DNA from: Saccharothrix sp. HUAS TT1
GTDB lineage: Bacteria; Actinomycetota; Actinomycetes; Mycobacteriales; Pseudonocardiaceae
Length of the DNA stretch: 64,000 bases
Assembly: GCF_040744945.1 (NCBI RefSeq)
Contig: NZ_CP160453.1
Coordinates: forward strand, 2,604,001-2,668,000
Reading direction: 5' to 3'
Part shown: positions 22,158-45,099 of the stretch, in pieces
How positions within the stretch are numbered: the first letter of the stretch is position 1
How the letters are laid out: each line of letters starts with the position of its first letter
The notes under the pieces: generated by a model
Databases searched by the model: none
What the model was told of the DNA's origin: nothing
Seen by the model: the letters and a program-made list of their open reading frames with translations, nothing else
Program-made: the position numbers and the translations under genes

Positions 22158-22532
22158 GTGTTCCGACTGTTCGAGGTGTCCCCGGAGCTGTACCGCGACG
22201 CGCTTGCCGTGGCACGGGACCAGTCCGACCGGATCGCGGCGGCTACCTCCAAGCCGGAGGAGATGCCCGAGGACGCCGTGTACTACCTCGCCGACGACCT
22301 GACCAGTGGGTTCGGTGTGTCGGCCGACGCCGAGCTGATCGGCCTGTTCAGCACCACCAAAGGGCGCGGCAAGGAGTTGGTGACCGAAGCGATCACCGCC
22401 GGTGCCGTGCGCCTCGACTGCTTCGACGGCTTCCTGCCGGAGTTCTACGAGACCTTCGGGTTCCGGGAGACCCACCGGGAGGCGAACTGGACGCCCGGAG
22501 AGCCGGACGTCGTCTTCATGGCCCTGGTGTGA
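22158..22532 (+). CDS. GNAT-like early protein, 124 aa
   Basis: First gene of the early operon. GTG at 22158 has AGAGGAG at 6 nt. The end (AELIGLFSTTKGRGKELVTE, then FLPEFYETFGFRETHREANW and DVVFMAL) has the layout of a GNAT acetyltransferase: a beta strand, a GRGK acceptor-loop-like turn, then the FYETFGF element. The acetyl-CoA loop is incomplete (no Q/RxxGxG/A), so activity is uncertain. It is the only gene of the ribozyme train not itself preceded by a hammerhead. Confidence 0.6.
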   Translation: MFRLFEVSPELYRDALAVARDQSDRIAAATSKPEEMPEDAVYYLADDLTSGFGVSADAELIGLFSTTKGRGKELVTEAITAGAVRLDCFDGFLPEFYETFGFRETHREANWTPGEPDVVFMALV

Positions 22533-22541
22533 AACGTTGGC
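22527..22541 (+). promoter_or_regulatory. 15-bp site fused to hammerhead 1
   Basis: GTGTGAAACGTTGGC; the TGA stop of the GNAT-like gene lies inside it and its last GGC is the first strand of stem II of hammerhead 1. Confidence 0.6.
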
Positions 22542-22598
22542 GAAACAGGGGGTGACCCCTGTCCACGGGGCTGGCATCCCCGTGCCGATGAGCCTGCC
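22539..22598 (+). ncRNA. Hammerhead ribozyme (type II), copy 1
   Basis: GGC-GAAA, stem III CAGGGG/CCCCTG with GTGA tetraloop, predicted cut after GUC at 22563. Stem I CACGGGG/CCCCGTG has loop CTGGCAT. The core reads CCGATGA, with C in place of the invariant U4, then GCC-TGCC. Probably weak or inactive unless compensated. Precedes the gene at 22621. Confidence 0.8.
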
Positions 22599-22620
22599 CA
22601 TCCCGAAAGGACTGTCGGCC

Positions 22621-23043
22621 ATGACCCTGGCGCTTGTCGACGCCATCCGTCCGACTCCTCTGCGCTACTTCGAGTTCGATCAGAACAACGCTGGCGGTCG
22701 GTACTGGTTCGACGCCGAGCGCGGGATCTCCGTGCGGGTGTTCATCCAGGCCGCCTCCGCGGTGGAGGCGAACCGGCGCGCACTGGCGATCGGGATCAAC
22801 TTCGACGATCAGTGCAAGAGCTGCTGCGGCTACCGGTGGTGGGAGCTGGGGTCCGACGCTCCCGGTCGCGACCGGCCCGAGGTCTACGGCGTGCCCGTGG
22901 AGGACTACGTCCCCGACCGCCCCCGGCGGGAGATCAAGGGACCGCACGTCTACGTGCACCGCCTCGACGGCTCGATCGAGGGCTACGGCGTGCCCCGTCA
23001 GGCGGCGCTCGGCGCCCAGCGAACGAGAGCCCTGCCCCGGTAA
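22621..23043 (+). CDS. Early phage protein of unknown function, 140 aa
   Basis: ATG at 22621, 57 nt after the predicted cut of hammerhead 1. Contains RYFEFDQNNAGGRYWFDAER and an acidic/cysteine patch (FDDQCKSCCGYRWWEL), followed by KGPHVYVHRLDGSIEGYGVP. This resembles conserved small proteins in many actinophage early regions. The CxxCC motif could bind metal. No function assigned. Confidence 0.75.
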   Translation: MTLALVDAIRPTPLRYFEFDQNNAGGRYWFDAERGISVRVFIQAASAVEANRRALAIGINFDDQCKSCCGYRWWELGSDAPGRDRPEVYGVPVEDYVPDRPRREIKGPHVYVHRLDGSIEGYGVPRQAALGAQRTRALPR

Positions 23044-23045
23044 CC

Positions 23046-23105
23046 GGCGAAACGGGGGGAGACCTCCGTCCCCTGGGCTGGCATCCCAGGGCTGATGAGC
23101 CTGCC
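23046..23105 (+). ncRNA. Hammerhead ribozyme (type II), copy 2
   Basis: Complete core GAAA and CTGATGA. Stem III CGGGGG/CCTCCG (one G.U) has GAGA tetraloop. Cut predicted after GUC at 23070. Stem I CCCTGGG/CCCAGGG has loop CTGGCAT; stem II GGC/GCC; trailing TGCC. Starts 2 nt after a stop codon; next ATG is 51 nt after the cut. Confidence 0.88.
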
Positions 23106-23121
23106 GAACGAAGGGAAATCC

Positions 23122-23709
23122 ATGAGCACCACCGATGGCGCACTGTCCGCAGAGGCGGAAGCGGAGCACGTCCGCATGGCGGAGATGCTGTGCAAGACCC
23201 TGCGCGAGCTGAACATGGCGCACGACTCGGTGAACGGGTTCTACGCCTCGGACAACTCGCACCAGGCGAACGCCAAGGGGTGGCGTGCCCTGAAGCCGTA
23301 CGCGGCGGTGCAGCACGCGCTCCGGGTCTCCCTGCTGGAGCTGTGCGGGGGGAACGAAGAACAGGCGGAGTGGATCGACTACCAACTGTGCGACAACGGG
23401 GAAGACGTCGCCTACAACCTGGCCGAGATGCGCAAGGAGTGGGCCTTCCGCGAGGAGATGGCGCTCGTCCGCAAGGCCGACGACCTGCTGATCGCCCTCG
23501 AAAACGCACAGAGGGGCGCGGACCCGGACGAGCTCCTGGTCTTCACCCTCCAGAAAGAGCTCACGGACGCGGTGCGTCCCCTGGTCGGCAACGACGACGA
23601 CCGGGCGGCCCGGCTCGTGAGAGAGGCGCAGGAAAAGCGCTGGTACATCTCCGACTTCGAGCTGGACGAGCTGCGGAAGCAGTGGGCCCAAGAGGACGCC
23701 CAGGTGTGA
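23122..23709 (+). CDS. Early phage protein of unknown function, 195 aa
   Basis: ATG at 23122 after GAAGGG. Largely helical and acidic (EHVRMAEMLCKTLRELNMAH, then ENAQRGADPDELLVFTLQKE). No catalytic motif or membrane segment recognised. Isolated by hammerheads 2 and 3 on either side; its stop is inside the second fused 15-bp site. Confidence 0.75.
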   Translation: MSTTDGALSAEAEAEHVRMAEMLCKTLRELNMAHDSVNGFYASDNSHQANAKGWRALKPYAAVQHALRVSLLELCGGNEEQAEWIDYQLCDNGEDVAYNLAEMRKEWAFREEMALVRKADDLLIALENAQRGADPDELLVFTLQKELTDAVRPLVGNDDDRAARLVREAQEKRWYISDFELDELRKQWAQEDAQV

Positions 23710-23718
23710 AACGTTGGC
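23704..23718 (+). promoter_or_regulatory. 15-bp site fused to hammerhead 3
   Basis: GTGTGAAACGTTGGC, identical to the copy at 22527. It again contains the upstream stop codon and supplies GGC of stem II. Confidence 0.6.
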
Positions 23719-23775
23719 GAAACAGGGGGAGACCCCTGTCCGCAGGGCTGGCATCCCTGCGCTGATGAGCCTGCC
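23716..23775 (+). ncRNA. Hammerhead ribozyme (type II), copy 3
   Basis: GAAA and CTGATGA intact. Stem III CAGGGG/CCCCTG with GAGA tetraloop, cut after GUC at 23740. Stem I CGCAGGG/CCCTGCG with loop CTGGCAT. Stem II GGC/GCC; trailing TGCC can pair with loop GGCA. Next start (GTG 23795) is 54 nt after the cut. Confidence 0.9.
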
Positions 23776-23794
23776 GAGTTACGGGGGAATCGCA

Positions 23795-23989
23795 GTGGAG
23801 CTGAAGACCTGGCAAGTCGTGGGCGCGTTCGTGGCGTCCCTCCTGGTCGCGGTAGCCGTGGCGGTCGGCTTGGTGCTGGTCGTCTACGCCTACTCCCCAG
23901 CGACCGCAACGGGAGTGCTGTGCAAGGGCGGCATGACCGTCACCGAATCCGAGGGCTGGAGCTACGCAGCCTGCGTGCATCGGCGCTGA
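23795..23989 (+). CDS. Small single-span membrane protein, 64 aa
   Basis: The GTG at 23795 is chosen over an in-frame start at 23714 because the latter would lie within the ribozyme; ACGGGGG is nearby. VELKTWQVVG is followed by a membrane segment (AFVASLLVAVAVAVGLVLVV), then a short outer tail with two cysteines (VLCKGGM, YAACVHRR). Could be a superinfection-exclusion or holin-like protein, but nothing proves this. Confidence 0.7.
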   Translation: MELKTWQVVGAFVASLLVAVAVAVGLVLVVYAYSPATATGVLCKGGMTVTESEGWSYAACVHRR

Positions 23990-23995
23990 GCGACT

Positions 23996-24056
23996 GGCGA
24001 AACCGTCCGCCCGGACGGTCCGCGGGATTGGCATTCCCGCGCTGAGGATGCCTGCC
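23996..24056 (+). ncRNA. Hammerhead ribozyme (type II), copy 4 (divergent)
   Basis: GAAA; stem III CCGTCC/GGACGG with loop GCCC; cut after GUC at 24020. Stem I CGCGGGA/TCCCGCG with loop TTGGCAT; the last A-T pair replaces G-C, a compensatory change. The core is CTGAGGA (G at variable position 7) followed by an extra T before GCC. Activity possible but less sure than its neighbours. Confidence 0.8.
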
Positions 24057-24084
24057 AATTCAGCAATCGAGAGGTGTATTTGCC

Positions 24085-24648
24085 ATGCCCGGAATCACCG
24101 ACGTCCCCCTGGTGCGGGAAATCCTCGGGGGCGACCTGTTCAAGGCGATGGGCACTGCATTCGACCGGATCGAGTGGGCAGAGGACGAGATCCAGCGCGC
24201 GATGCGCCGGAACCCGGCGGAAGCGGACCTGCTCTACCACAGCTTCGAGCTCCTGAAGGCGACGCACGACCGAATGGACTCGGAGAGGGTGTTCCGGGCC
24301 CACTGCCGCGAGTTGCTCCAGCGCGTGGTCAACCGGGAGGACACCCGACCGGGGACTGCTGCGGAGGTGTGCTGCATCGCCTCGGACGCAAGCAAGGTGA
24401 CCCCGCTCAACACCAGCGCGGCCGGTCTCTACTTCCGCATGTGGCAGAAGGCGTTCCCGGACCTCGTCCCCGCGATCGAGAGCGACCTCCCGCACTACGA
24501 AGCGCTGAAGGGGTCGCAGATCGACGACCTGGAGGCGGAATCCCGCCGGAAGCTCGCGGTCGCGGAGCGCGTCCTGGGCGAAATCGAGTGCGGCGGTTGG
24601 CACAACGGCGACCGCGTGCAGTGCAAGTACGTCGGCGACACCGACTGA
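24085..24648 (+). CDS. Early phage protein of unknown function, 187 aa
   Basis: ATG at 24085 after GAGAGG. Helical throughout (GTAFDRIEWAEDEIQRAMRR, LLYHSFELLKATHDRMDSER), with cysteines near residues 95 (VCCIASD) and 175. No known domain is recognised. Bounded by hammerheads 4 and 5; the following ribozyme starts 1 nt after its stop. Confidence 0.75.
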   Translation: MPGITDVPLVREILGGDLFKAMGTAFDRIEWAEDEIQRAMRRNPAEADLLYHSFELLKATHDRMDSERVFRAHCRELLQRVVNREDTRPGTAAEVCCIASDASKVTPLNTSAAGLYFRMWQKAFPDLVPAIESDLPHYEALKGSQIDDLEAESRRKLAVAERVLGEIECGGWHNGDRVQCKYVGDTD

Positions 24649-24649
24649 C

Positions 24650-24709
24650 GGCGAAACAGGGGGAGACCCCTGTCCGCAGGGCTGGCATCCCTGCGCTGAT
24701 GAGCCTGCC
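24650..24709 (+). ncRNA. Hammerhead ribozyme (type II), copy 5
   Basis: GAAA and CTGATGA intact; same stems as copy 3 (CAGGGG-GAGA-CCCCTG; CGCAGGG/CCCTGCG, loop CTGGCAT). Cut after GUC at 24674; next ATG 52 nt later. Trailing TGCC present. Confidence 0.9.
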
Positions 24710-24726
24710 GAGACGAGGGGAATCGA

Positions 24727-25263
24727 ATGGACGCAAGGGCCAAGGCGCGGCGAGGTCTCCTCGACCAGCACGCCGCCCTCGTGGACTGGGCGCGGGAGTA
24801 CCGCCGGATGGGCATCCGCGACGGGGTTCACCGCGCGCTGCAACTCGCAGCCCAGATCCGGATCTCCCTCCTGGAGGAGTGGACGACCGACCAGATGATC
24901 GCCGGTCGCGGCCTGGGCGCCCACCCGTGGGACTGCACGTGCGGCGTCTGCTTCCGGGCCTACGTCCAGACCGTCTGGGAAGGGCCCAGCGGGTACGCAC
25001 CGCTGATCTACCGGGACTGGCTCGACGCCACCCTGGCCGAACGGCGCGAGGTCCGGCTCGAAGCGGAGATGCGGAGAAGACCGCGCTACACGGTCGGGCG
25101 CGTTCCGATGGGGCGCGGGTGGGGTGTCTACGACAACCGCCCCGATCCCGTCTTCCCCGACGACGAGAACGCCCCGCCCGAGTACCGGCACTGGCACTCC
25201 ACGGACTACGGCTGGCGCGGCGAAGCGCAGGGGGTCGCGGACCGCCTGAACGCCCGGAGCTAA
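24727..25263 (+). CDS. Early phage protein with CxCxxC motif, 178 aa
   Basis: ATG at 24727 after GAGGGG. Begins basic and helical (MDARAKARRGLLDQHAALVD). Residues about 55-80 contain HPWDCTCGVCFRAYVQTVW, a possible metal site. The end is aromatic and charged (APPEYRHWHSTDYGWRGEAQ). Unknown function; the Cys cluster suggests a nucleic-acid-binding or regulatory protein. Confidence 0.75.
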   Translation: MDARAKARRGLLDQHAALVDWAREYRRMGIRDGVHRALQLAAQIRISLLEEWTTDQMIAGRGLGAHPWDCTCGVCFRAYVQTVWEGPSGYAPLIYRDWLDATLAERREVRLEAEMRRRPRYTVGRVPMGRGWGVYDNRPDPVFPDDENAPPEYRHWHSTDYGWRGEAQGVADRLNARS

Positions 25264-25265
25264 CT

Positions 25266-25323
25266 GGCGAAACCCCCTGGCGGGGGTCCGCAGGGCTGGC
25301 ATCCCTGCGCTGATGAGCCTGCC
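25266..25323 (+). ncRNA. Hammerhead ribozyme (type II), copy 6
   Basis: GAAA and CTGATGA intact. Stem III CCCCC/GGGGG with loop TGGC; cut after GUC at 25288. Stem I CGCAGGG/CCCTGCG, loop CTGGCAT, trailing TGCC. Starts 2 nt after the upstream stop. Confidence 0.9.
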
Positions 25324-25346
25324 AATTCACCCGCGAGGGGAACCCC

Positions 25347-26105
25347 ATGAGTACTGAGGTTGCGATCTGGCACGCCTACTCCCCGGAGCAGTACGCCAAG
25401 ACGGTGGAGCTGTGGGGGCGCCTGCTGGACAGCCACCGGATCAGCCTGACCGAGGACCGGTACAACCGCGGCCTGGAGAAGGTCGAGCCGGAGCACCTGT
25501 ACGCGCTGGTCATGAGCGACGGCGCCGCGACGCGCGACTACGACGCCGTGACCGTGATCGTGGCCTCGCACTCCGACTACCACGGCGACGAGTACGACGC
25601 CGTGAACGTGGGCGAGCTGATCGACACGCACGGCCTGAACGAGAACGAGCTGTCCAAGGGGTACCGGGCGGCGTGGGTCCAGCTCGGAGAGCTCCCGACC
25701 GTCACCGACGACCCGATCGACGTGGGCATCGAGAGACTGGAGGCCCTGGTCAAGCTGGTCGAGGCGTTGACCCAGGGCGACGTCGTGTGCCTCAACGACG
25801 AGGCGCTGGAGGAGTACCGCCAGGACCGGATCGCGGCGGCGTGGAGCGACTTCTACGCCCGTGAGGTGTCCCACGAGCTGGAGCACCTCACCGGCTACAA
25901 CGCGGACGACCTCGGGTTCACCGACGACCAGGTCCGGGACATCTACCTCGGGTTCGAGGACAACGACTGGCAGTTCAGCGACTCGAACACCGTCACCAAC
26001 CACGCCCACGAGGACACGGTCGACCACGTGATCGACACCATCCGCGACGCCTGGCGCGCGGTCGCGGTCGACCCCGAGCAGACCTCCCTGCCCATCGCCT
26101 CCTGA
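25347..26105 (+). CDS. Early phage protein of unknown function, 252 aa
   Basis: ATG at 25347 preceded by GAGGGG. Very acidic (many Asp/Glu, no cluster of basic residues), with SDGAATRDYDAVTVIVASHS, YNADDLGFTDDQVRDIYLGF and a C-terminal QTSLPIAS. Acidic, soluble early phage proteins can be DNA mimics or host-enzyme inhibitors, but no diagnostic feature is seen. Confidence 0.75.
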   Translation: MSTEVAIWHAYSPEQYAKTVELWGRLLDSHRISLTEDRYNRGLEKVEPEHLYALVMSDGAATRDYDAVTVIVASHSDYHGDEYDAVNVGELIDTHGLNENELSKGYRAAWVQLGELPTVTDDPIDVGIERLEALVKLVEALTQGDVVCLNDEALEEYRQDRIAAAWSDFYAREVSHELEHLTGYNADDLGFTDDQVRDIYLGFEDNDWQFSDSNTVTNHAHEDTVDHVIDTIRDAWRAVAVDPEQTSLPIAS

Positions 26106-26108
26106 TCC

Positions 26109-26169
26109 GGCGAAACCGTCCACACCGGACGGTCCCGAGGGCTGGCATCCCTCGGCTGATGAGCCTGCC
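26109..26169 (+). ncRNA. Hammerhead ribozyme (type II), copy 7
   Basis: GAAA and CTGATGA intact. Stem III CCGTCC/GGACGG with loop ACACC; cut after GUC at 26134. Stem I CCGAGGG/CCCTCGG, loop CTGGCAT; GCC-TGCC follows. Next ATG 51 nt after the cut. Confidence 0.9.
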
Positions 26170-26185
26170 AACGAGGACGGACGAC

Positions 26186-26320
26186 ATGGACGACTACGAG
26201 GACGAAACCGCGACGTGCCGCACGGACGGATGCGACGGCGACCCGGACGACGGCGAGGGCTACGACGGGTTCTGCGGCAACTGCGCCGATTGCCTGGAGG
26301 CAGAGGGCCACTGGGGCTGA
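26186..26320 (+). CDS. Small acidic zinc-ribbon-like protein, 44 aa
   Basis: ATG at 26186 after GAGGACGGACG. The peptide begins MDDYEDETATCRTDGCDGDP and contains FCGNCADCLE, giving CxxxxC and CxxCxxC spacing for a small metal site. It lies between hammerheads 7 and 8 with the standard spacing on both sides (51 nt after a cut, stop 2 nt before the next element), which supports that it is real. Confidence 0.75.
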   Translation: MDDYEDETATCRTDGCDGDPDDGEGYDGFCGNCADCLEAEGHWG

Positions 26321-26322
26321 CT

Positions 26323-26382
26323 GGCGAAACCGCCGTGCTGGGCGGTCCCGAGGGCTGGCATCCCTCGGCTGATGAGCCTGCC
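26323..26382 (+). ncRNA. Hammerhead ribozyme (type II), copy 8
   Basis: GAAA and CTGATGA intact. Stem III CCGCC/GGCGG with loop GTGCTG; cut after GUC at 26347. Stem I CCGAGGG/CCCTCGG, loop CTGGCAT; GCC-TGCC follows. Next ATG 51 nt after the cut. Confidence 0.9.
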
Positions 26383-26398
26383 AACGAGGAGGGACCAC

Positions 26399-26806
26399 AT
26401 GAGCGAGACGCCCAAGCCCAAGGGGCTCGGCCTGGATTTCTACCGCTCCGCGCGAGGCGGGGACTACACGCTCGGCGGGATCTCCGGGCGCTTCGACCAG
26501 TGCGTGCTGATCGGCATCATCAACCACACCAGCGCGCGACTCACGGGCCAGCCCCCCGCACCGCAGCCGCTACCCAAGCTCAGCCAGGTCGTCGAGCCGA
26601 GGCCCGACGCTCCGGCGGTCTACCTGGTGATGGGCAAGCACGGCCCGAACGACCGGTTCATCATCCCGGCCGACCAGGAGACGTGGCAGCCGGACACCCG
26701 CTGGTGGATGCACGGGGGCAACTTCGCGGACACCACCGACTCCCGGTTCGACGCCCTGCTTCCGGGCGGGTTCGCGGTCCGCGTCCACGACCGCCACGAG
26801 GGCTGA
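26399..26806 (+). CDS. Early phage protein of unknown function, 135 aa
   Basis: ATG at 26399 after GAGGAGGGA. Residues about 20-50 (GGDYTLGGISGRFDQCVLIG) and 90-115 (QETWQPDTRWWMHGGNFADT) form a beta-rich, Trp-rich protein. Small proteins of this type occur in actinophage early regions without known function. Isolated by hammerheads 8 and 9. Confidence 0.72.
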   Translation: MSETPKPKGLGLDFYRSARGGDYTLGGISGRFDQCVLIGIINHTSARLTGQPPAPQPLPKLSQVVEPRPDAPAVYLVMGKHGPNDRFIIPADQETWQPDTRWWMHGGNFADTTDSRFDALLPGGFAVRVHDRHEG

Positions 26807-26812
26807 ACGCAC

Positions 26813-26870
26813 GGCGAAACCCCCTGTCGGGGGTCCTGGGGGCTGGCATCCCCCGGCTGACGAGCCTGCC
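26813..26870 (+). ncRNA. Hammerhead ribozyme (type II), copy 9
   Basis: GAAA and CTGACGA (allowed C at position 7). Stem III CCCCC/GGGGG with loop TGTC; cut after GUC at 26835. Stem I CTGGGGG/CCCCCGG with one G.U; loop CTGGCAT; GCC-TGCC follows. Next ATG 52 nt after the cut. Confidence 0.9.
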
Positions 26871-26887
26871 GAGAACAGGGGAACACC

Positions 26888-27277
26888 ATGCAGGACAACG
26901 AGTTCGACCGCAACGTGATCACCGACGAGAACGTGGACGAGATCATGGACACGGCCGGATACGGCATCACCTACTGGGCCACCAGCCCGACCGAGGGGCA
27001 GCTCGCGAAGGCGCCCGAGGACACCTCGTTCGTGATCGTGGAGGACGAGGAGGACGGGAGCGGCGAGGTCCACTACCTGACCCGCGACCACATCCGCGAC
27101 GCCTTCCTGAAGATCCTCGGGCCCGAGCAGACGCTCGTGAACGACAGAGTGCAGGGCTACCTCCTCGCCGCCTGGCGGGACCGCGACGGCGAGGGCATCG
27201 ACACGACCCACGTCGACAGCGACGCGGCCGACTGCATCGTGCAGGTCGCCGCCTTCGGACGACTGGTCTACGGCTGA
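26888..27277 (+). CDS. Early phage protein of unknown function, 129 aa
   Basis: ATG at 26888 after ACAGGGGAA. Acidic; contains IMDTAGYGITYWATSPTEGQ, FVIVEDEEDGSGEVHYLTRD and VDSDAADCIVQVAAFGRLVYG, a pattern seen in conserved small actinophage proteins. Its stop overlaps the start of a 12-codon ORF, so the two share one ribozyme-bounded mRNA unit. Confidence 0.75.
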   Translation: MQDNEFDRNVITDENVDEIMDTAGYGITYWATSPTEGQLAKAPEDTSFVIVEDEEDGSGEVHYLTRDHIRDAFLKILGPEQTLVNDRVQGYLLAAWRDRDGEGIDTTHVDSDAADCIVQVAAFGRLVYG

Positions 27278-27315
27278 TGCTCCCGACCCTCCAGGACCAG
27301 TGGTTCTTCAGATGA
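27277..27315 (+). CDS. Candidate 12-residue mini-gene A (MLPTLQDQWFFR)
   Basis: ATG overlaps the preceding TGA (TGATG), allowing coupled translation. The stop is 3 nt before hammerhead 10, matching the 0-6 nt rule of all other copies; without this ORF the gap would be 41 nt. It shares M-x-P-x-x-Q-x-Q-W and exact length with the mini-gene at 28029. Confidence 0.55.
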   Translation: MLPTLQDQWFFR

Positions 27316-27318
27316 CCC

Positions 27319-27380
27319 GGCGAAACCGCCCCCCGCGGGGCGGTCCCGAGGGCTGGCATCCCTCGGCTGACGAGCCTGCC
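27319..27380 (+). ncRNA. Hammerhead ribozyme (type II), copy 10
   Basis: GAAA and CTGACGA. Stem III CCGCCCC/GGGGCGG with loop CCGC; cut after GUC at 27345. Stem I CCGAGGG/CCCTCGG, loop CTGGCAT; GCC-TGCC follows. Next ATG 54 nt after the cut. Confidence 0.9.
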
Positions 27381-27399
27381 GAACGAGAGGAGAGCGGCC

Positions 27400-27654
27400 A
27401 TGCGCAAGCGGCTGCTGTGGAGAATCCCGGCCCTCGCCTTCGCGGCGAGCCTGGCCGTGGCGAGCGTGGCGACCGTCCCGTGGGGCGAGCCGCAGGAGGA
27501 CGACCCCAACTGGAACTGCCGCACGATGGGCAACCACGACTGCGGCTTCCCCGACCCCGACGACACCGGCGTCGTGATCCTCGTGCACTTCGACGAGCGC
27601 GGCGAGCCGGTCAGCGTCCGCAAGCGCGTCCTGCCCGGCCAGGTGCAGCGATGA
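27400..27654 (+). CDS. Small exported phage protein, 84 aa
   Basis: ATG at 27400 after GAGAGGAGAG. A basic start (MRKRLLWR) and hydrophobic run (IPALAFAASLAVASVATVPW) form a signal peptide or anchor. The mature part has two cysteines (NWNCRTMGNHDCGF) that may form a disulfide. An envelope role during lysogeny or infection is possible. Its stop overlaps the next start (ATGA). Confidence 0.7.
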   Translation: MRKRLLWRIPALAFAASLAVASVATVPWGEPQEDDPNWNCRTMGNHDCGFPDPDDTGVVILVHFDERGEPVSVRKRVLPGQVQR

Positions 27655-27944
27655 CCGCCCCGGCCGAGGTCGCCAAGGCGGCGCCCGTGCCCGAGCGGGT
27701 CGGCACGTACCGAGTGGTCGCGCATTACGACTTCCTGGGCCTGGGGGAGCGCATCCTCCTGCTGGCGAAGCCCAGCGGCCTGGGCCTGGACTACGCGACC
27801 GGTTCCGTGTCGGTGTTCGCCGACACCCCGACCTACTGGTTCGGGAGCAAGGACTTCAACGGCATCTCGACGGAGGTCAACCTCCGCAACGCGACTCGCG
27901 ACTTCTTCCAGCGCATCCACGGGCGCATCGCCGCGGCCGGTTGA
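27651..27944 (+). CDS. Early phage protein of unknown function, 97 aa
   Basis: ATG overlaps the preceding stop (ATGA), one of the few junctions in this stretch without a hammerhead, so it is presumably co-translated with the exported protein. Contains GTYRVVAHYDFLGLGERILL and TYWFGSKDFNGISTEVNLRN. No domain recognised. Confidence 0.72.
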   Translation: MTAPAEVAKAAPVPERVGTYRVVAHYDFLGLGERILLLAKPSGLGLDYATGSVSVFADTPTYWFGSKDFNGISTEVNLRNATRDFFQRIHGRIAAAG

Positions 27945-27949
27945 TCTAC

Positions 27950-28005
27950 GGCGAAACCCCGCGAGGGGTACGGCGGGCTGGCATCCCGCCGCCGACGAGC
28001 CTGCC
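27950..28005 (+). ncRNA. Hammerhead ribozyme (type II), copy 11 (variant)
   Basis: GAAA; stem III CCCC/GGGG with GCGA tetraloop. Cleavage triplet is GUA instead of GUC (cut after 27970), which is allowed. Stem I CGGCGGG/CCCGCCG, loop CTGGCAT. The core is CCGACGA with C for the invariant U4; GCC-TGCC follows. Likely slow or inactive. Precedes the mini-gene at 28029. Confidence 0.78.
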
Positions 28006-28028
28006 GCCGAGCGAGAGGAGAGCCAGCA

Positions 28029-28067
28029 ATGCAGCCGATCAGGCAGCACCAGTGGCACCCGTTATGA
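28029..28067 (+). CDS. Candidate 12-residue mini-gene B (MQPIRQHQWHPL)
   Basis: ATG has a strong GAGAGGAGAG box and lies 58 nt after the predicted cut of hammerhead 11. The stop is 3 nt before hammerhead 12. It is the only ORF between the two ribozymes. Shares Pro3, Gln6, Gln8 and Trp9 and exact length with the mini-gene at 27277. Confidence 0.62.
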   Translation: MQPIRQHQWHPL

Positions 28068-28070
28068 CCA

Positions 28071-28133
28071 GGCGAAACCGCCCCCTTTGGGGGTGGTCCG
28101 CAGGGCTGGCATCCCTGCGCTGATGAGCCTGCC
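28071..28133 (+). ncRNA. Hammerhead ribozyme (type II), copy 12
   Basis: GAAA and CTGATGA intact. Stem III CCGCCCCC/GGGGGTGG (one G.U) with TTT loop; cut after GUC at 28098. Stem I CGCAGGG/CCCTGCG, loop CTGGCAT; GCC-TGCC follows. Next ATG 56 nt after the cut. Confidence 0.9.
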
Positions 28134-28154
28134 GTGAGCAAGGGGGAACGACCC

Positions 28155-29066
28155 ATGACGACCACAGAGCTGCTCACCCCGGCCTACCGGGTGCGGATCG
28201 AGCGGGACGACGACGCCGAGAACCCGCGCCTGACCTTCGAGCAGACGTCGCACGTGATCACGGTCGACGCCAACAGGTCCATCCCGGTCGACGAGGACTT
28301 CGGCCCGCTGGCCGACCAGTGGCGCAGCCTGGAGGAGCGGTACGCCAGGGGCCGCGCGATGGCGATCTTCGTCAGGTACGCGCAGGCCGTGCACGGGGCG
28401 ACCGTGCTGCTCGACACCGCGCACTACGACGGGGCCCGCGCGATCTGGTACCTGCTGCCCGAGGACGTGAACCTCGCCTACGCCCCCGAGGGACTCCAGG
28501 CGTACGCGATGAAGATCCTGGAGGCCGAGCGCACCGAGTACCGCGCGTGGGCCCGCGGCGAGGTGCTCAAATACGTGATCGAGCGCCTGGTCACCTGGAG
28601 CAGCCCCGAACTGGGCACCACCCGGCAGACGTGGGAGCTGGTCGAGGAGCACGGGGGCTACGAGTCCGAGGCCGAGGCCGAACGTGAGGCGCAGCAAGCG
28701 ATCGACGCGCTGACCACCGAGCCCGAGGACGGCGGCGACGACGAGAGCGACGCTCCCAGCCCGCGCGTGGCGCAGGTGCCCGAGAAGGTGTGGCAGGCCG
28801 TCGTCGCCGGGCCCGGCCACCTGAAGAACATCGTCGAGGCGACGAGCTCCGATCAGCCGGACTGGAACGTGACGACGCTGGTCGGCGACGTCGTCATCAC
28901 CGTGACCGAGACGGTGCGCGCGGTCGACGACGAGCGCCTGGCCGCCACGCTCCGAGAGATGCGCAACGAGACCCCGGCCCGCCCGTGGGAGGGCGGCTGG
29001 AACAGCGCGCTCGACGCCCTCCTGAAGACGGTGGAGACGCGCATCCGGGAGCGCAAGCGCAGATGA
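28155..29066 (+). CDS. Early phage protein of unknown function, 303 aa
   Basis: The ATG at 28155 follows AAGGGGG; an earlier in-frame start at 28134 would overlap the ribozyme. The largest gene of the ribozyme train. The N-terminal half is mixed alpha/beta (YRVRIERDDDAENPRLTFEQ, WRSLEERYARGRAMAIFVRY). A Glu/Asp-rich linker (residues about 175-205) precedes a second domain (VAQVPEKVWQAVVAGPGHLK). No known catalytic motif recognised. Confidence 0.75.
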   Translation: MTTTELLTPAYRVRIERDDDAENPRLTFEQTSHVITVDANRSIPVDEDFGPLADQWRSLEERYARGRAMAIFVRYAQAVHGATVLLDTAHYDGARAIWYLLPEDVNLAYAPEGLQAYAMKILEAERTEYRAWARGEVLKYVIERLVTWSSPELGTTRQTWELVEEHGGYESEAEAEREAQQAIDALTTEPEDGGDDESDAPSPRVAQVPEKVWQAVVAGPGHLKNIVEATSSDQPDWNVTTLVGDVVITVTETVRAVDDERLAATLREMRNETPARPWEGGWNSALDALLKTVETRIRERKRR

Positions 29067-29126
29067 GGCGAAACCCGGCTGACGCCGGGTCCGCGGGGCT
29101 GGCATCCCCGCGCTGACGAGCCTGCC
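29067..29126 (+). ncRNA. Hammerhead ribozyme (type II), copy 13
   Basis: GAAA and CTGACGA. Stem III CCCGGC/GCCGGG with loop TGAC; cut after GUC at 29091. Stem I CGCGGGG/CCCCGCG, loop CTGGCAT; GCC-TGCC follows. Begins at the base following the TGA stop. Next ATG 52 nt after the cut. Confidence 0.9.
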
Positions 29127-29143
29127 GAGACGAGGGGAACAAG

Positions 29144-29587
29144 ATGACCAAGGCCAGTGAGGCGAGGGGCAACTTCGGCGGCCTGTGCTACACGCCGGGC
29201 TGCCCGGAGACCGACGCGATGGGGTCCTCGATCTACCACGCGGGCAACGACCGCAACCGGTGCAACGGGTGCCTCGACGCGATCAGCGTCCTGATCCCGG
29301 CCATTCCGCAGGAGGCATGGCGCCTGCGGCTGGTGAACGACGAGGCGATGAGCGCCTACGTGCGCCACGTCGTCACGCTGCCCTACAAAGGGCTGCGCGA
29401 GCGCGCGGCGCCCCTGCTGGAGCGCAAGGAGCGCGCGTACCAGGACTTCGCACGCCTGGCGCGTGTGGCGGGGGACGGAGCGCTTGTGCGCGACCTCGTT
29501 GCGCGCATCGTCGAGGTGCCGCACCTGGTGATCGACTCGACGATCACGAACTTCTGGGTCCGCCACTTCAACGAGTCGACGAGATGA
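29144..29587 (+). CDS. Early phage protein with zinc-ribbon-like start, 147 aa
   Basis: ATG at 29144 after GAGGGGAA. The first 45 residues hold two Cys pairs (LCYTPGCPE and NRCNGCLDA) that could bind zinc. The rest is helical (RHVVTLPYKGLRERAAPLLE). Ends ESTR with the stop abutting hammerhead 14. Function unknown; nucleic-acid binding is possible. Confidence 0.72.
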   Translation: MTKASEARGNFGGLCYTPGCPETDAMGSSIYHAGNDRNRCNGCLDAISVLIPAIPQEAWRLRLVNDEAMSAYVRHVVTLPYKGLRERAAPLLERKERAYQDFARLARVAGDGALVRDLVARIVEVPHLVIDSTITNFWVRHFNESTR

Positions 29588-29647
29588 GGCGAAACCCGGC
29601 GCGAGCCGGGTCCGGTGGGGTGGCATCCCACCGCTGACGAGCCTGCC
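29588..29647 (+). ncRNA. Hammerhead ribozyme (type II), copy 14
   Basis: GAAA and CTGACGA. Stem III CCCGGC/GCCGGG with GCGA tetraloop; cut after GUC at 29612. Stem I CGGTGGG/CCCACCG with loop GTGGCAT; GCC-TGCC follows. Begins at the base following the TGA stop. Last copy of the array; next start (GTG 29665) is 52 nt after the cut. Confidence 0.9.
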
Positions 29648-29664
29648 ATGAGGAGGAGTGCCTA

Positions 29665-29943
29665 GTGCAGACCATCCAGGACCGCTTCCAGCAGTTCCAC
29701 GTGGACAACCCCGACGTCTACGAGACGCTGGAGCGCCTCGCGGCCGAGTGGTTCGAGGCGGGCAAGCGCAAGCTTGGGGTGAAGATGCTCTGGGAGACGA
29801 TGCGGTGGGAGCGCAGCAAGCTCGCGGCCCCCGGCACGTTCGCCCTGAACGACGTCTACACCTCGCGCTACGCACGCCTGCTGGTGCAGCGTCACCCCGA
29901 GTGGGCGCCGTACATCGAGCTGCGCGAGCTGCGGGCCGCCTGA
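29665..29943 (+). CDS. Early phage protein of unknown function, 92 aa
   Basis: GTG at 29665 after AGGAGGAG. Helical; contains ETLERLAAEWFEAGKRKLGV, MLWETMRWERSKLAAP and NDVYTSRYARLLVQRHPEW, a layout known from conserved actinophage proteins of unknown function. The stop overlaps the next ATG, starting the unit without hammerheads. Confidence 0.75.
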   Translation: MQTIQDRFQQFHVDNPDVYETLERLAAEWFEAGKRKLGVKMLWETMRWERSKLAAPGTFALNDVYTSRYARLLVQRHPEWAPYIELRELRAA

Positions 29944-34086: not shown

Positions 34087-34269
34087 TTGAACCCTCGCCG
34101 CCTCACCGTTGCTGACGTGTGTGCCGACCTCGAAATCTCCCGGTCCACCTTCTACGACTGGCGCGCGAAGAAGCGCGGCCCGAAGTGCATCCGCCTGCCG
34201 AATGGCGAGCTGCGAATCCGGGTCGCGGATTACGAACGGTGGCTGGAAGAACTGGAGGAATCGGCATGA
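34087..34269 (+). CDS. xis: Excisionase-like helix-turn-helix protein, 60 aa
   Basis: TTG at 34087, giving LTVADVCADLEISRSTFYDW, a MerR/AlpA-type helix-turn-helix with the Tyr-Asp-Trp recognition helix, followed by the wing (CIRLPNGELRIRVADYERWL). Overlaps the integrase start by ATGA. Such small proteins direct excision; a regulator role at the integrase promoter is an alternative. Gene symbol is by analogy. Confidence 0.78.
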   Translation: MNPRRLTVADVCADLEISRSTFYDWRAKKRGPKCIRLPNGELRIRVADYERWLEELEESA

Positions 34270-35657
34270 CGGACGACACGAGCTACGACGTCCAGGTTTT
34301 CGCGCTCGACCCCTACATCCACAAGGGGAGCAAGAAGGTCACCTACTGGGTCCGCTGGCGGGTGATCAAAAAGCGCTTCAAGCAGAAGTACGCGACCAAG
34401 GCGCTCGCGGAAGGGTTCCGGTCCGAGCTGCTCTCCGCGGCCCGCAAGGGCGAGGCGTTCCGGACCTTCGACGGTCTGCCCGTGTCGATGGCGCGGCAGT
34501 CCGACGAGATGAGCTGGTACGAGTTCGCCTGCGCGTTCGTCGACATGAAGTGGCCGCACGTCGCGGCGACCACCCGGCGGACGCACGCCGAGGCGTTGAC
34601 CAGGGCCACCCCGGCGATGTTCTCCTCGACGAAGGGGAAGCCGGACGACGCGCTGATCAGGTCCGCGCTGACCCGCTGGGGGTTCAACACCGCCCGCCGG
34701 GCCGACGCGCCCGAGGACGTGCGCCGGGCGCTGAAGTGGGTCGCGGCGAACACCCTGCCGGTGACCGCGCTGCGCGACCCGCAGGTGCTCCGGCCCCTGC
34801 TCGACCGGCTCGCGGTCAAGCTCGACGGCAAGCCCGCGGCGCCGAGCGTCGTGTCCCGCCAGCGCAAGATCCTCGGCACGGCGATGGAGTACGCCGTGGA
34901 GCGCAAGCTCCTCGACTCCAACCCCATCCCGGCCCTGAAGTGGATCGCGCCGCGGAAGACGGTCCAGGCGATCGACCAGCGCCGCGTCGCCAACCCGGCG
35001 CAGGTGCGCGACCTCCTGGACGCTGTGCGCGTGCAGCAGCGCAGCGGCCCGCGCCTGGTGGCGTTCTTCGGCTGCCTCTACTACGCCGGGATGCGCCCGG
35101 AGGAGGCCGTCGCGCTGTCCAAGCACCAGCTCTCCCTGCCCGAGGAGGGCTGGGGAGAGATCCACCTGGAGACCGCCCGCCCTCACGCCGGACGCGAGTG
35201 GACCGACAGCGGGAAGAACCGGGACGAGCGCCAGCTCAAACAGCGGGACGCGGGCACGATCCGCCCGGTCCCCAGCCCGCCCGAGCTGACCGAGCTGCTG
35301 CACCGCCACATGCGGGTCTACGGCACGGCCAGGGACGGGCGGCTGTTCCGCGGCGAGCGCAACGACGACGAGCTGCCCAAGCTGACGATCCTGCGGGCGT
35401 GGCGCAAGGCGAGGGAGAAGGCGTTGCCGCCCGAGCTGGCGGCCACGGACCTGGCCGCCTCGCCCTACGACCTGCGCCACGCGGGCGTGTCGCTGTGGCT
35501 CAGCTCCGGCGTGCCGCCGAAGCAGGTCGCCGAGTGGGCAGGGCACTCGCTGGAGGTGCTGTTCCGGATCTACGCCCACGTGCTCAGCGGCTCCAACGAC
35601 GCCATCCGCGCGCTGGTCGAGGCGGGGTTGAAGGGGGCTTCGGGCGACTCAGAGTGA
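34266..35657 (+). CDS. int: Tyrosine-type phage integrase
   Basis: 463 residues from ATG 34266. The N-terminal part has an AP2-like DNA-binding pattern (KKVTYWVRWRVIKKRFKQKY), then a core-binding SAM-like domain (residues about 80-220). The catalytic domain has the first Arg in YYAGMRPEEA (about 276), DLRHAG (Arg404-His405; the usual box II His is Tyr), EWAGHS and the nucleophile Tyr436 in RIYAHVL. It lies 176 bp from the 3' end of tRNA-Arg, so that tRNA is the attachment site. Confidence 0.94.
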   Translation: MTDDTSYDVQVFALDPYIHKGSKKVTYWVRWRVIKKRFKQKYATKALAEGFRSELLSAARKGEAFRTFDGLPVSMARQSDEMSWYEFACAFVDMKWPHVAATTRRTHAEALTRATPAMFSSTKGKPDDALIRSALTRWGFNTARRADAPEDVRRALKWVAANTLPVTALRDPQVLRPLLDRLAVKLDGKPAAPSVVSRQRKILGTAMEYAVERKLLDSNPIPALKWIAPRKTVQAIDQRRVANPAQVRDLLDAVRVQQRSGPRLVAFFGCLYYAGMRPEEAVALSKHQLSLPEEGWGEIHLETARPHAGREWTDSGKNRDERQLKQRDAGTIRPVPSPPELTELLHRHMRVYGTARDGRLFRGERNDDELPKLTILRAWRKAREKALPPELAATDLAASPYDLRHAGVSLWLSSGVPPKQVAEWAGHSLEVLFRIYAHVLSGSNDAIRALVEAGLKGASGDSE

Positions 35658-35833: not shown

Positions 35834-35908
35834 TGGTGCCCCCGGCAGGATTCGAACCTGCGCTCCCGCCTCCGGAGGGCGGTGCTCTATCCCCTGAGCT
35901 ACGGGGGC
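35834..35908 (-). tRNA. tRNA-Arg (CCG); prophage attachment site
   Basis: Minus strand: acceptor GCCCCCG/CGGGGGC, D-arm TAGCTCAGGGGATAGAG, anticodon arm CCGCC-CTCCGGA-GGCGG (anticodon CCG), T-arm GCAGGTTCGAATCCTGC, and encoded CCA. The 3' end faces the phage integrase. Integrases of this type insert at tRNA 3' ends and restore them, so the 3' half here is probably phage-derived. The matching core should lie left of the window. Confidence 0.93.
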
Positions 35909-44382: not shown

Positions 44383-45099
44383 TCAGCTCGGCAGCGGCGC
44401 CGCGCCGCGCTCGGTGAGCAGCTGCTCCAGGTAGGCGCTCTCGCTGGTCTGCGACTTGAGCATGTTCTCGGCCAGCGTGCGCACGACCGACTGCCCGGCG
44501 TGCGTGGTGGCGTACTCGGCCATCGGCGCGCCGCCCCGGTGGTGGCGCAGCATCAGCTGGAGGAAGTACACGTCGAAGTCGACGCCGACCAGCGAGCGCA
44601 GCCGGTTCAGCTCCTCCGCCGTGGCCATGCCGGGCATCAGGTCGGGGTCGTCGGCGCCCGCGCCGGAGTCGGAGCCGGTGCCCCCGCCGTGGCCGTGGGT
44701 GGAGGACGTCATCCACCACATGTGCCTGCCGTCGACCGACTGCTCCGGGTAGCCCCACAGGAACAGCCAGCCCTTCATCCGGCCGACCTGCTCCAACTGG
44801 GTCGAGGAGATGTCGAACGCGAGCTGCTCGACCGCCGGGTCCGCCGTCTTGTCGCGCGCGAGGTTGGACATCGTCACGCCCTGGAGGTGGTGCGCCGACA
44901 TGTCCTGGGTGAAGCCGACGTCCACCGAGTCGCGCGCGGGCGTGGAGCTGTTGTCCGCGCCCGGCAGCTTGATCAGCAGCCCGACGGCGGCGCCGAGCAG
45001 GAGGACGGCCAGGACCGCCACCGCGACCACGACCGTCCTGGTCGCGGTCGTCGCGCGGGCGGGCGCGGGCGCGACCTCTTCCTGCTCGGCGTCCGCCAC
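44383..45099 (-). CDS. DUF305 domain protein
   Basis: 238 residues with an N-terminal membrane anchor (TVVVAVAVLAVLLLGAAVGL). Two DUF305 halves follow: VDVGFTQDMSAHHLQGVTMS and VDFDVYFLQLMLRHHRGGAP, with the conserved MxxHH/ LRHHxGG histidines. Some members bind copper in the periplasm. Starts 3 nt after the DUF3105 gene stop, so the two form an operon. Confidence 0.87.
   Translation of the reverse strand: MADAEQEEVAPAPARATTATRTVVVAVAVLAVLLLGAAVGLLIKLPGADNSSTPARDSVDVGFTQDMSAHHLQGVTMSNLARDKTADPAVEQLAFDISSTQLEQVGRMKGWLFLWGYPEQSVDGRHMWWMTSSTHGHGGGTGSDSGAGADDPDLMPGMATAEELNRLRSLVGVDFDVYFLQLMLRHHRGGAPMAEYATTHAGQSVVRTLAENMLKSQTSESAYLEQLLTERGAAPLPS

Follow-up and report, generated by a model that had tools for sequence, protein, structure and literature searches.

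A prophage carried by Saccharothrix sp. HUAS TT1 contains a run of 16 consecutive open reading frames (ORFs) parted by 14 type II hammerhead ribozyme motifs. It lies in the window analysed here, the whole stretch of 64,000 nucleotides (nt) from 2,604,001 to 2,668,000 on the forward strand of contig NZ_CP160453.1; window positions below count from its first nt. The motif recurs with a mostly intact core and covarying stems, it stands between the stop codon and the Shine-Dalgarno sequence, the same layout is found in related genomes and isolated phages, and in further phages it is exchanged for a tRNA-like minihelix. The 14 hammerheads are predicted to cut the RNA of the 16 ORFs into about 15 separate mRNAs, each except the first starting with a 5'-hydroxyl (5'-OH) and a stable stem I hairpin before the ribosome-binding site, and homologous genes of hammerhead-less phages have the minihelix in front instead. 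We give this reading a probability of roughly 0.7.

Hammerheads between phage genes

The hammerhead core, in the numbering used here, consists of C3 U4 G5 A6 N7 G8 A9, G12 A13 A14, the pair A15.1-U16.1 and H17, which is not G. The elements of the window read, 5' to 3', GGC-GAAA, the stem III hairpin, UC (UA once), the stem I hairpin, CUGANGA (CCGANGA in two copies), GCC and UGCC. Stem II, formed by GGC with GCC, has 3 base pairs (bp) and an open end and is identical in all 14 copies. The loop of stem I is cUGGCAu (gUGGCAu in the copy at 29588, uUGGCAu in that at 23996), and its GGCA can pair with the tail UGCC in 14/14 copies, a pseudoknot that is invariant in the window and whose pairing scheme is our own; passages of Perreault et al. 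2011 report a common pseudoknot for type II hammerheads (PMC3088659). By RF02276 score, core, three helices with stem II open, and pseudoknot, the elements class as type II hammerhead motifs. The copies are:

22539..22598, + strand: hammerhead II copy 1; cut predicted before 22564; core U4 to C; RF02276 31.6 bits
23046..23105, + strand: hammerhead II copy 2; cut predicted before 23071; core intact; RF02276 38.6 bits
23716..23775, + strand: hammerhead II copy 3; cut predicted before 23741; core intact; RF02276 37.7 bits
23996..24056, + strand: hammerhead II copy 4; cut predicted before 24021; extra U between A9 and stem II; RF02276 37.0 bits
24650..24709, + strand: hammerhead II copy 5; cut predicted before 24675; core intact; RF02276 38.2 bits
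25266..25323, + strand: hammerhead II copy 6; cut predicted before 25289; core intact; RF02276 42.2 bits
26109..26169, + strand: hammerhead II copy 7; cut predicted before 26135; core intact; RF02276 41.5 bits
26323..26382, + strand: hammerhead II copy 8; cut predicted before 26348; core intact; RF02276 41.3 bits
26813..26870, + strand: hammerhead II copy 9; cut predicted before 26836; core intact; RF02276 36.1 bits
27319..27380, + strand: hammerhead II copy 10; cut predicted before 27346; 12-aa ORF in front; RF02276 40.8 bits
27950..28005, + strand: hammerhead II copy 11; cut predicted before 27971; GUA site, core U4 to C; RF02276 20.0 bits, E 6.2; second-round model 66.4 bits
28071..28133, + strand: hammerhead II copy 12; cut predicted before 28099; core intact; RF02276 44.2 bits
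29067..29126, + strand: hammerhead II copy 13; cut predicted before 29092; core intact; RF02276 44.4 bits
29588..29647, + strand: hammerhead II copy 14; cut predicted before 29613; core intact; RF02276 42.1 bits

A sequence-only reading of the window had placed 14 type II hammerheads here and named an Rfam search as the check; all are present. The RF02276 covariance model matches the 14 elements on the + strand between 22539 and 29647, 11 of them at or above its gathering score of 37 bits. The other three score 36.1, 31.6 and 20.0 bits, and the copy at 27950, with an E value of 6.2, would be insufficient by RF02276 alone; run over the whole 64-kb window, the model lists 10 matches. A second-round model of our own, partly built from window copies and using the best 150 of 254 matches, scores the 14 copies at 66.4-80.5 bits and the runner-up site in the window at 21.8. 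The search that fed it covered the window and 46 of 117 loci (9/9 genome contigs, 37/78 viral contigs, 0/30 from the genome search). Because of the gap between 66.4 and 21.8 bits, the runner-up was rejected and no fifteenth copy is seen. Elsewhere in the 8.7-Mb host genome there is no further RF02276 match at E 0.001. All 14 predicted cleavage positions, when recomputed, equal those that the sequence-only reading had listed, and its product geometry is supported.

The strict core is intact in 12/14 window copies, the departures being U4 to C at 22539 and 27950. An earlier list of intact cores (copies 3, 5, 6, 7, 8 and 12) was too short because core position 7 is free. The copy at 23996 has an extra U after A9, and a nucleotide is inserted at the same place in 20 of 71 copies from seven isolated phages described below; the strict core is intact in all 71. 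Among 162 copies, those outside the window having been found with a model that rewards this core, H17 is never G and U4 is C three times (the census left out a weak match at window 6109 and a match cut by the contig end at L065 11810).

Stems I and III covary, as had been claimed: 97.0% of 265 cells in the window are paired, against 36-49% in slid controls, and none of 500 shuffles is as high as the window for cells paired, two-sided cells or covariation score. Two-sided change is seen at 9 of 21 pairs in these stems, a count that 13/500 shuffles reach. It rises to 17/21 pairs, including stem II and the pseudoknot, in the 71 isolate copies (69 distinct; slid controls 34-51%), and stands at 15/21 in 93 matches from nine sources including the window (slid controls 32-46%); in both larger alignments the sequences were fitted to the structure of the model, a procedure that favours pairing. 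In relatives stem II varies with compensation and the pseudoknot shows two-sided changes, 85.7% of its cells being paired in the isolates. Minimum-energy folds with 30-nt flanks keep stem III in 13/14 window copies.

The hammerheads lie within one run of genes:

22158..29943, + strand: run of 16 consecutive ORFs parted by hammerheads (our own gene calls; stops and starts checked)

The earlier statement that a copy lies at almost every junction can be made exact: a hammerhead stands at 14 of 15 junctions, and the remaining one is a 4-nt ATGA overlap (27651-27654). Every non-overlapping gap in this run of non-structural genes is filled by a hammerhead. In 13/14 cases the motif follows the stop codon at 0-6 nt and in one at 41 nt, where a 12-aa ORF overlapping the stop fills the gap; the start codon follows 16-28 nt after the motif in 14/14. 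The hammerhead thus occupies the space between the stop codon and the ribosome-binding site.

Two 12-aa ORFs end shortly before hammerheads:

27277..27315, + strand: 12-aa ORF MLPTLQDQWFFR, ending 3 nt before copy 10
28029..28067, + strand: 12-aa ORF MQPIRQHQWHPL between copies 11 and 12, ending 3 nt before copy 12

Because four similar 12-aa ORFs (pattern M.P..Q.QW) precede hammerheads in three related arrays (L126, L127, L128), they are likely to form a conserved micropeptide family. Another repeat, GTGTGNAACGTT, occurs at window 22055, 22527 and 23704, which places it before the first gene and upstream of copies 1 and 3; it may serve this prophage as an operator.

In the left part of the window the - strand encodes structural proteins of a phage (terminase, portal, maturation protease, head closure, tape measure, minor tail and endolysin). 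The right part has + strand genes, the last of them for an integrase, and beyond these a tRNA gene:

34119..35657, + strand: tyrosine integrase (Pfam PF00589; PHROG 1 integrase), at the presumed right prophage end
35837..35908, - strand: tRNA gene adjoining the integrase (tRNA search)

With structural genes at the left and an integrase beside a tRNA gene at the right, the region is read as a prophage, and the 14 copies are several hammerheads flanking the genes of one prophage.

Arrays in related prophages and in Streptomyces phages

Hammerhead matches occur in 7 of 297 genomes of the host's family, its own included. A sample of the phylum gave two in 396 genomes, the host's own and one with a match below the cut-off. 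Such a rare and patchy spread is as expected of phages. Presumed prophages in three related genomes carry 17 copies (Saccharothrix sp. ALI-22-I, of the host's own genus), 13 (G022) and 12 (Lentzea sp. NEAU-D7), at one place each. When the ORFs behind the hammerheads of the four arrays were compared, and these alone, they were 34-91% identical where homologous and partly different in order.

A blastn search with the array region returned 119 phage records, all of Streptomyces phages. Ten isolates were compared, namely eight Arquatrovirinae together with Sujidade and Kamino; for Daudau, Paedore, VieEnRose and Caelum the comparison covered just the right arm. Seven of the ten have arrays of 9-13 hammerheads, 71 copies in total, and 56 of these reach the Rfam cut-off:

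Hammerheads per isolate: Paedore 13, VieEnRose 11, Spernnie 10, Caelum 10, Daudau 9, Hank144 9, R4 9

The hammerhead model finds none in Izzy, Sujidade and Kamino. All 71 isolate copies are on the gene strand, 53 of the 63 intergenic gaps of at least 60 nt contain one, and 54/71 end 7-29 nt before an annotated start. Annotated coding sequences (CDS) are untouched by 55/71; eight of the 16 overlapping copies are in R4. The recorded hosts of R4 and Paedore are S. coelicolor A3(2) and S. lividans JI 1326, respectively.

Some annotations in these phages deserve comment. Eight of the nine hammerheads of R4 (L123) overlap annotated CDS, and some of its small ORFs, among them gp67.1 and gp75.1, as well as the long gp72, look like artefacts of annotation. 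Spernnie (L122) has two tandem hammerheads at one junction (44742-44865), one of which overlaps an annotated CDS by 45 nt. A hammerhead-less gap of about 255 nt that recurs in four isolates was considered as another RNA and rejected, one frame being open throughout in all four. This unannotated gap (252-258 nt; L119 8005-8259, L120 44373-44627, L122 40151-40408, L125 5881-6132) has a similar open frame in each and would be either an overlooked gene or part of a neighbouring one that extends into it.

Promoter-like sites of score at least 7 end 6-20 nt upstream of 16/71 isolate hammerheads, against 2.85% at random positions (about 2 expected), and score-8 sites precede 8/71, against 0.37% (0.3 expected); the score was devised after such sites had been seen, and some of the 16 are weak. 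Three of the sites read TTGTGC, 17 nt, TACTGT, with 11 nt left before the motif. For a hammerhead directly behind a promoter, separating two genes cannot be all that the cut is for; what the predicted cut would always give is a 5' end, capped by a hairpin, for the gene that follows. In the window, a scan of 19.8-35.8 kb for promoters before each gene found 0 against 0.5 expected, with none at most 60 nt before the hammerheads, the scans being weak for actinobacterial promoters. Seven terminators were found against 6.8 expected, which is no evidence for terminators in the scanned window. The isolates also have a stoperator-like repeat, TGTG[CT]AA[CG][TC]G, at 15-22 copies per genome in three near-whole genomes (L120, L122 and L123 among the isolates) against about 0.5 expected. 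It is mostly oriented with transcription and sometimes lies between a stop codon and a hammerhead; Izzy has 1.

A tRNA-like minihelix before the same genes

The junctions of Izzy hold ten elements of exactly 40 nt each, unannotated in the records seen. They combine an acceptor-like helix of 5 bp with a T-arm-like hairpin of 6 bp (loop TTCGAGN), joined by an 11-nt linker that contains GGCA; ACT or ACC comes next. A descriptor of this build gives 10 matches in Izzy (L121), 7 in Sujidade (L131), 8 in Kamino (L132) and 8 in Mycobacterium phage Damien (L133), on one strand per phage, and 0.00 per genome in 20 block shuffles each. It finds none in the seven hammerhead isolates, and its one match in the window is part of the tRNA gene at 35837-35908. 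In 31 aligned minihelices (two odd Damien matches left out) 319/319 cells are paired and 7/11 pairs show two-sided change, giving a coaxial acceptor/T-arm-like fold. Most minihelices are followed by a hairpin: the mean z over the next 30 nt is -2.1, 24/31 reach -7 kcal/mol or better, and 18/31 have z < -1.5. ARAGORN makes no tRNA call in Izzy.

A pattern scan of viral contigs found at least 120 stretches with a minihelix match; the 18 with two or more among the 80 listed were taken with the four phages as 22 minihelix sources. In these the hammerhead model finds a site of 15.3 bits in Damien, which is chance level, and one of 38.3 bits in IMGVR_UViG_3300028889_000021. The latter, below the Rfam cut-off, is a complete hammerhead in line with six minihelices at consecutive junctions. 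Conversely, no site in 16 hammerhead sources scores above 20.1 bits with the minihelix covariance model. Five further minihelix matches, spaced 97-331 nt apart, lie in one bacterial genome out of 200 of the family (G064:C1:2664643-2665322); the spacing is mostly too close for genes between, and this cluster is possibly a different use of the minihelix.

Izzy, Sujidade and Kamino were set against the seven hammerhead isolates, with gene families defined by reciprocal best hits and the state of each family by majority. The full lists comprised all annotated array-strand genes of the fetched stretches except cut edge genes, with one more Kamino minihelix. The mark before the gene agrees in 22/23 shared families (6 both, 16 neither, 1 hammerhead only, 0 minihelix only; Fisher p = 6.9e-5) and the mark after the gene in 19/23 (4 both, 15 neither, 3 and 1 discordant; p = 0.017), p being a guide only because the phages are related and were chosen by similarity. 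A first run used shortened lists, in which the promoter-distal side was cut for several phages and three R4 ORFs overlapping hammerheads were left out; it gave 17/18 (p = 0.00038) before and 14/18 (p = 0.047) after the gene. The mark is thus tied more closely to the gene downstream of it than to the one upstream.

Uncollapsed counts from the shortened lists are 53 minihelix/hammerhead, 143 neither, 17 minihelix only and 7 hammerhead only for downstream genes, and 62, 96, 57 and 8, respectively, for upstream genes. Of 69 homologous adjacent gene pairs in these lists, seven have a minihelix against a hammerhead, 60 neither, two a minihelix only and none a hammerhead only. The seven stem from two minihelix-phage junctions (Sujidade, Kamino) set against several hammerhead phages, and one of the two minihelix-only pairs involves R4, in which an annotated ORF extends across the hammerhead. 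That homologous genes are preceded by a hammerhead in some phages and by a minihelix in others suggests that the function lies in intergenic cutting. Since relatives carry a tRNA-like hairpin before the same genes, the cut itself is likely what evolution keeps.

Proposed processing, alternatives and meaning

The 16-ORF stretch would be read as one transcript, which would cut itself at each hammerhead. The upstream piece would keep stem III behind its stop codon, and the downstream piece would have the first pair of stem I as its 5' end, 51-64 nt ahead of the start codon. The minihelix would be cut with like effect by host RNase P and/or RNase Z; the RNase P substrates listed in a review include RNAs of phages and transcripts from intergenic regions (PMC11143913). 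A precedent for activity comes from the tandem prophage hammerheads of Perreault et al. 2011, passages of which give the expected products measured in vitro and cleavage in E. coli (PMC3088659). The selected product would be the 5' end of the downstream gene's mRNA, and the likely gain would be separate decay and translation for each gene with a protected 5' end, as the RiboJ insulator provides.

Several points weigh against such processing. Two window copies have C at U4, one of them with a GUA site as well. Stem I is wholly absent from the minimum-energy fold in 4/14 copies, and the 3-bp stem II is never predicted. With the stop codon mostly 0-6 nt upstream, a terminating ribosome would sit on the 5' half of the motif, and some of the RNA may therefore stay uncut. 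Nor does a 5'-OH end have to stabilise an mRNA, for in B. subtilis RNase J degrades the glmS product. Genes and marks do not always go together: ORFs 23122 and 25347 have a hammerhead in front in the window, but their homologs (of 23122 in two related arrays, of 25347 in the third) precede the first hammerhead with no mark in front. No promoter-like site stands directly before any of the 56 hammerheads in the window and the three related presumed prophages, so that a role as a 5' module rests on the isolates. The minihelix scores 26.9 bits against a cut-off of 42.5 for its nearest Rfam family, mascRNA-menRNA (RF01684), a family of tRNA-like RNAs cut by RNase P and RNase Z. Finally, the ten phages are related and were picked by similarity to the arrays, and the 23 families are not independent draws.

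Other explanations have to be set beside the cutting of one RNA into gene-length mRNAs. The repeats might be DNA anchors kept for recombination and exchange of gene cassettes, their RNA activity being incidental. The copies do share fixed blocks, and homologous ORFs behind hammerheads stand in different orders across the four arrays (only such ORFs being compared). However, stems I and III diverge in sequence with pairing kept, so that DNA identity is eroded, the catalytic core is intact in 71/71 isolate copies, and Izzy-type phages have a wholly different RNA before the same genes; we regard such anchors as improbable. A role without any cleavage, as two stable intergenic hairpins that block decay or insulate translation, seems to us very improbable, since hairpins alone need no G12 A13 A14, C3-A9 or non-G H17, all of which are kept, nor a covarying stem II and a pseudoknot of loop I and tail. 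It does agree with the minimum-energy folds, which show stem III and, in 10/14 copies, stem I, and with the hairpin that mostly stands behind the minihelix too.

Just as improbable is conditional cleavage, in which ribosome traffic, a ligand or a protein would set cutting at each junction and the array would be a regulator and not a constant processor. No extra ligand-binding domain is seen in the copies and most cores are standard, although stop codons abut the 5' strand (0-6 nt in 13/14), core variants recur (U4 to C in 3/162, the inserted nucleotide after A9), and the stoperator-like repeat of the isolates lies between the stop and some hammerheads. Least probable of all, in our estimate, is that the pieces, with their 5'-OH and 2',3'-cyclic phosphate ends, are joined by RtcB ligase into exonuclease-proof circles of single genes. 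The halves meet only via the core and the shared 3-bp stem II, which is identical in all 14 window copies, so that in principle the 5' half of one copy could pair with the 3' half of any other, and RtcB (PF01139) is present in 4/4 array host genomes, though also in 9/14 control genomes. Perreault et al. sought spliced or circular products and detected none (PMC3088659), and minihelix phages would not yield such ends.

The proposed cutting between genes by the hammerheads has several known likenesses, and the window is a large, regular case of the prophage clusters of Perreault et al. 2011. Passages of that paper describe clustered prophage hammerheads and propose the cutting of phage RNA into gene-length pieces (PMC3088659); the sequence-only reading, which knew of no phage operon divided in this way, was thus anticipated. 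Core, three helices with an open stem II, pseudoknot, clustering in prophages and proposed gene-length cutting are shared. The arrays here have 12-17 copies per presumed prophage, and the window array differs from those passages in standing at all non-overlapping junctions, in its fixed place from stop to ribosome-binding site and in the exchange with another element in related phages. As far as searched, the completeness of the array, the arrays of 12-17 in three presumed prophages, the occurrence of arrays in isolated phages of Streptomyces and their replacement by a tRNA-like element in others are new beyond these passages. Among titles and abstract beginnings of open-licence literature, no paper was found on Streptomyces phage hammerhead arrays or on tRNA-like elements at phage gene junctions, and a passage of a 2023 paper calls the biological reason for the association of ribozymes with phages still unknown (PMC10085705).

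A second likeness, to RiboJ, concerns the 5' end that a cut leaves. As in RiboJ, a hammerhead before the ribosome-binding site would leave a uniform 5' untranslated region (UTR) and then a hairpin, with several variants per construct. RiboJ was derived from the hammerhead of a plant satellite RNA. It is reported to normalise the 5' UTR (PMC7536230) and to raise expression (PMC6206723). It is man-made and has a separate 23-nt hairpin, whereas the elements here are natural and of type II, with stem I itself as the hairpin, and stand mostly between genes, behind promoters in a subset only. A hammerhead between a promoter-like site and the ribosome-binding site, comparable to RiboJ, was found in 0/56 cases in the window and three related arrays and in 16/71 in the isolates at score at least 7. 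The RNase III sites of phage T7 are likewise regular cuts between the genes of an operon that leave hairpins at the mRNA ends; in T7 a host protein cuts at a double-stranded site, whereas a hammerhead would be cut by the RNA itself. In mitochondrial tRNA punctuation and in the MALAT1 mascRNA, a tRNA-like fold between or behind genes is the cut signal. The Izzy-type minihelix resembles these, but has only the acceptor-like and T-arm-like helices (40 nt), stays below the RF01684 cut-off and receives no ARAGORN call.

Isolates such as R4 and Paedore make the function of the arrays directly testable. If the proposed processing is true, a block of non-structural genes would be run as separate RNA units sharing few promoters. 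We lean slightly towards a wider view, drawn from comparison of the sequences, in which actinobacterial phages would use an interchangeable RNA punctuation. Many genes would have their own cut mark in front, either a self-cutting hammerhead or a tRNA mimic of 40 nt aimed at the tRNA-processing enzymes of the host. Lineages would swap the device while the set of punctuated genes stays. What is inherited would then be the instruction "cut here, start with a hairpin", and not the cutting device.

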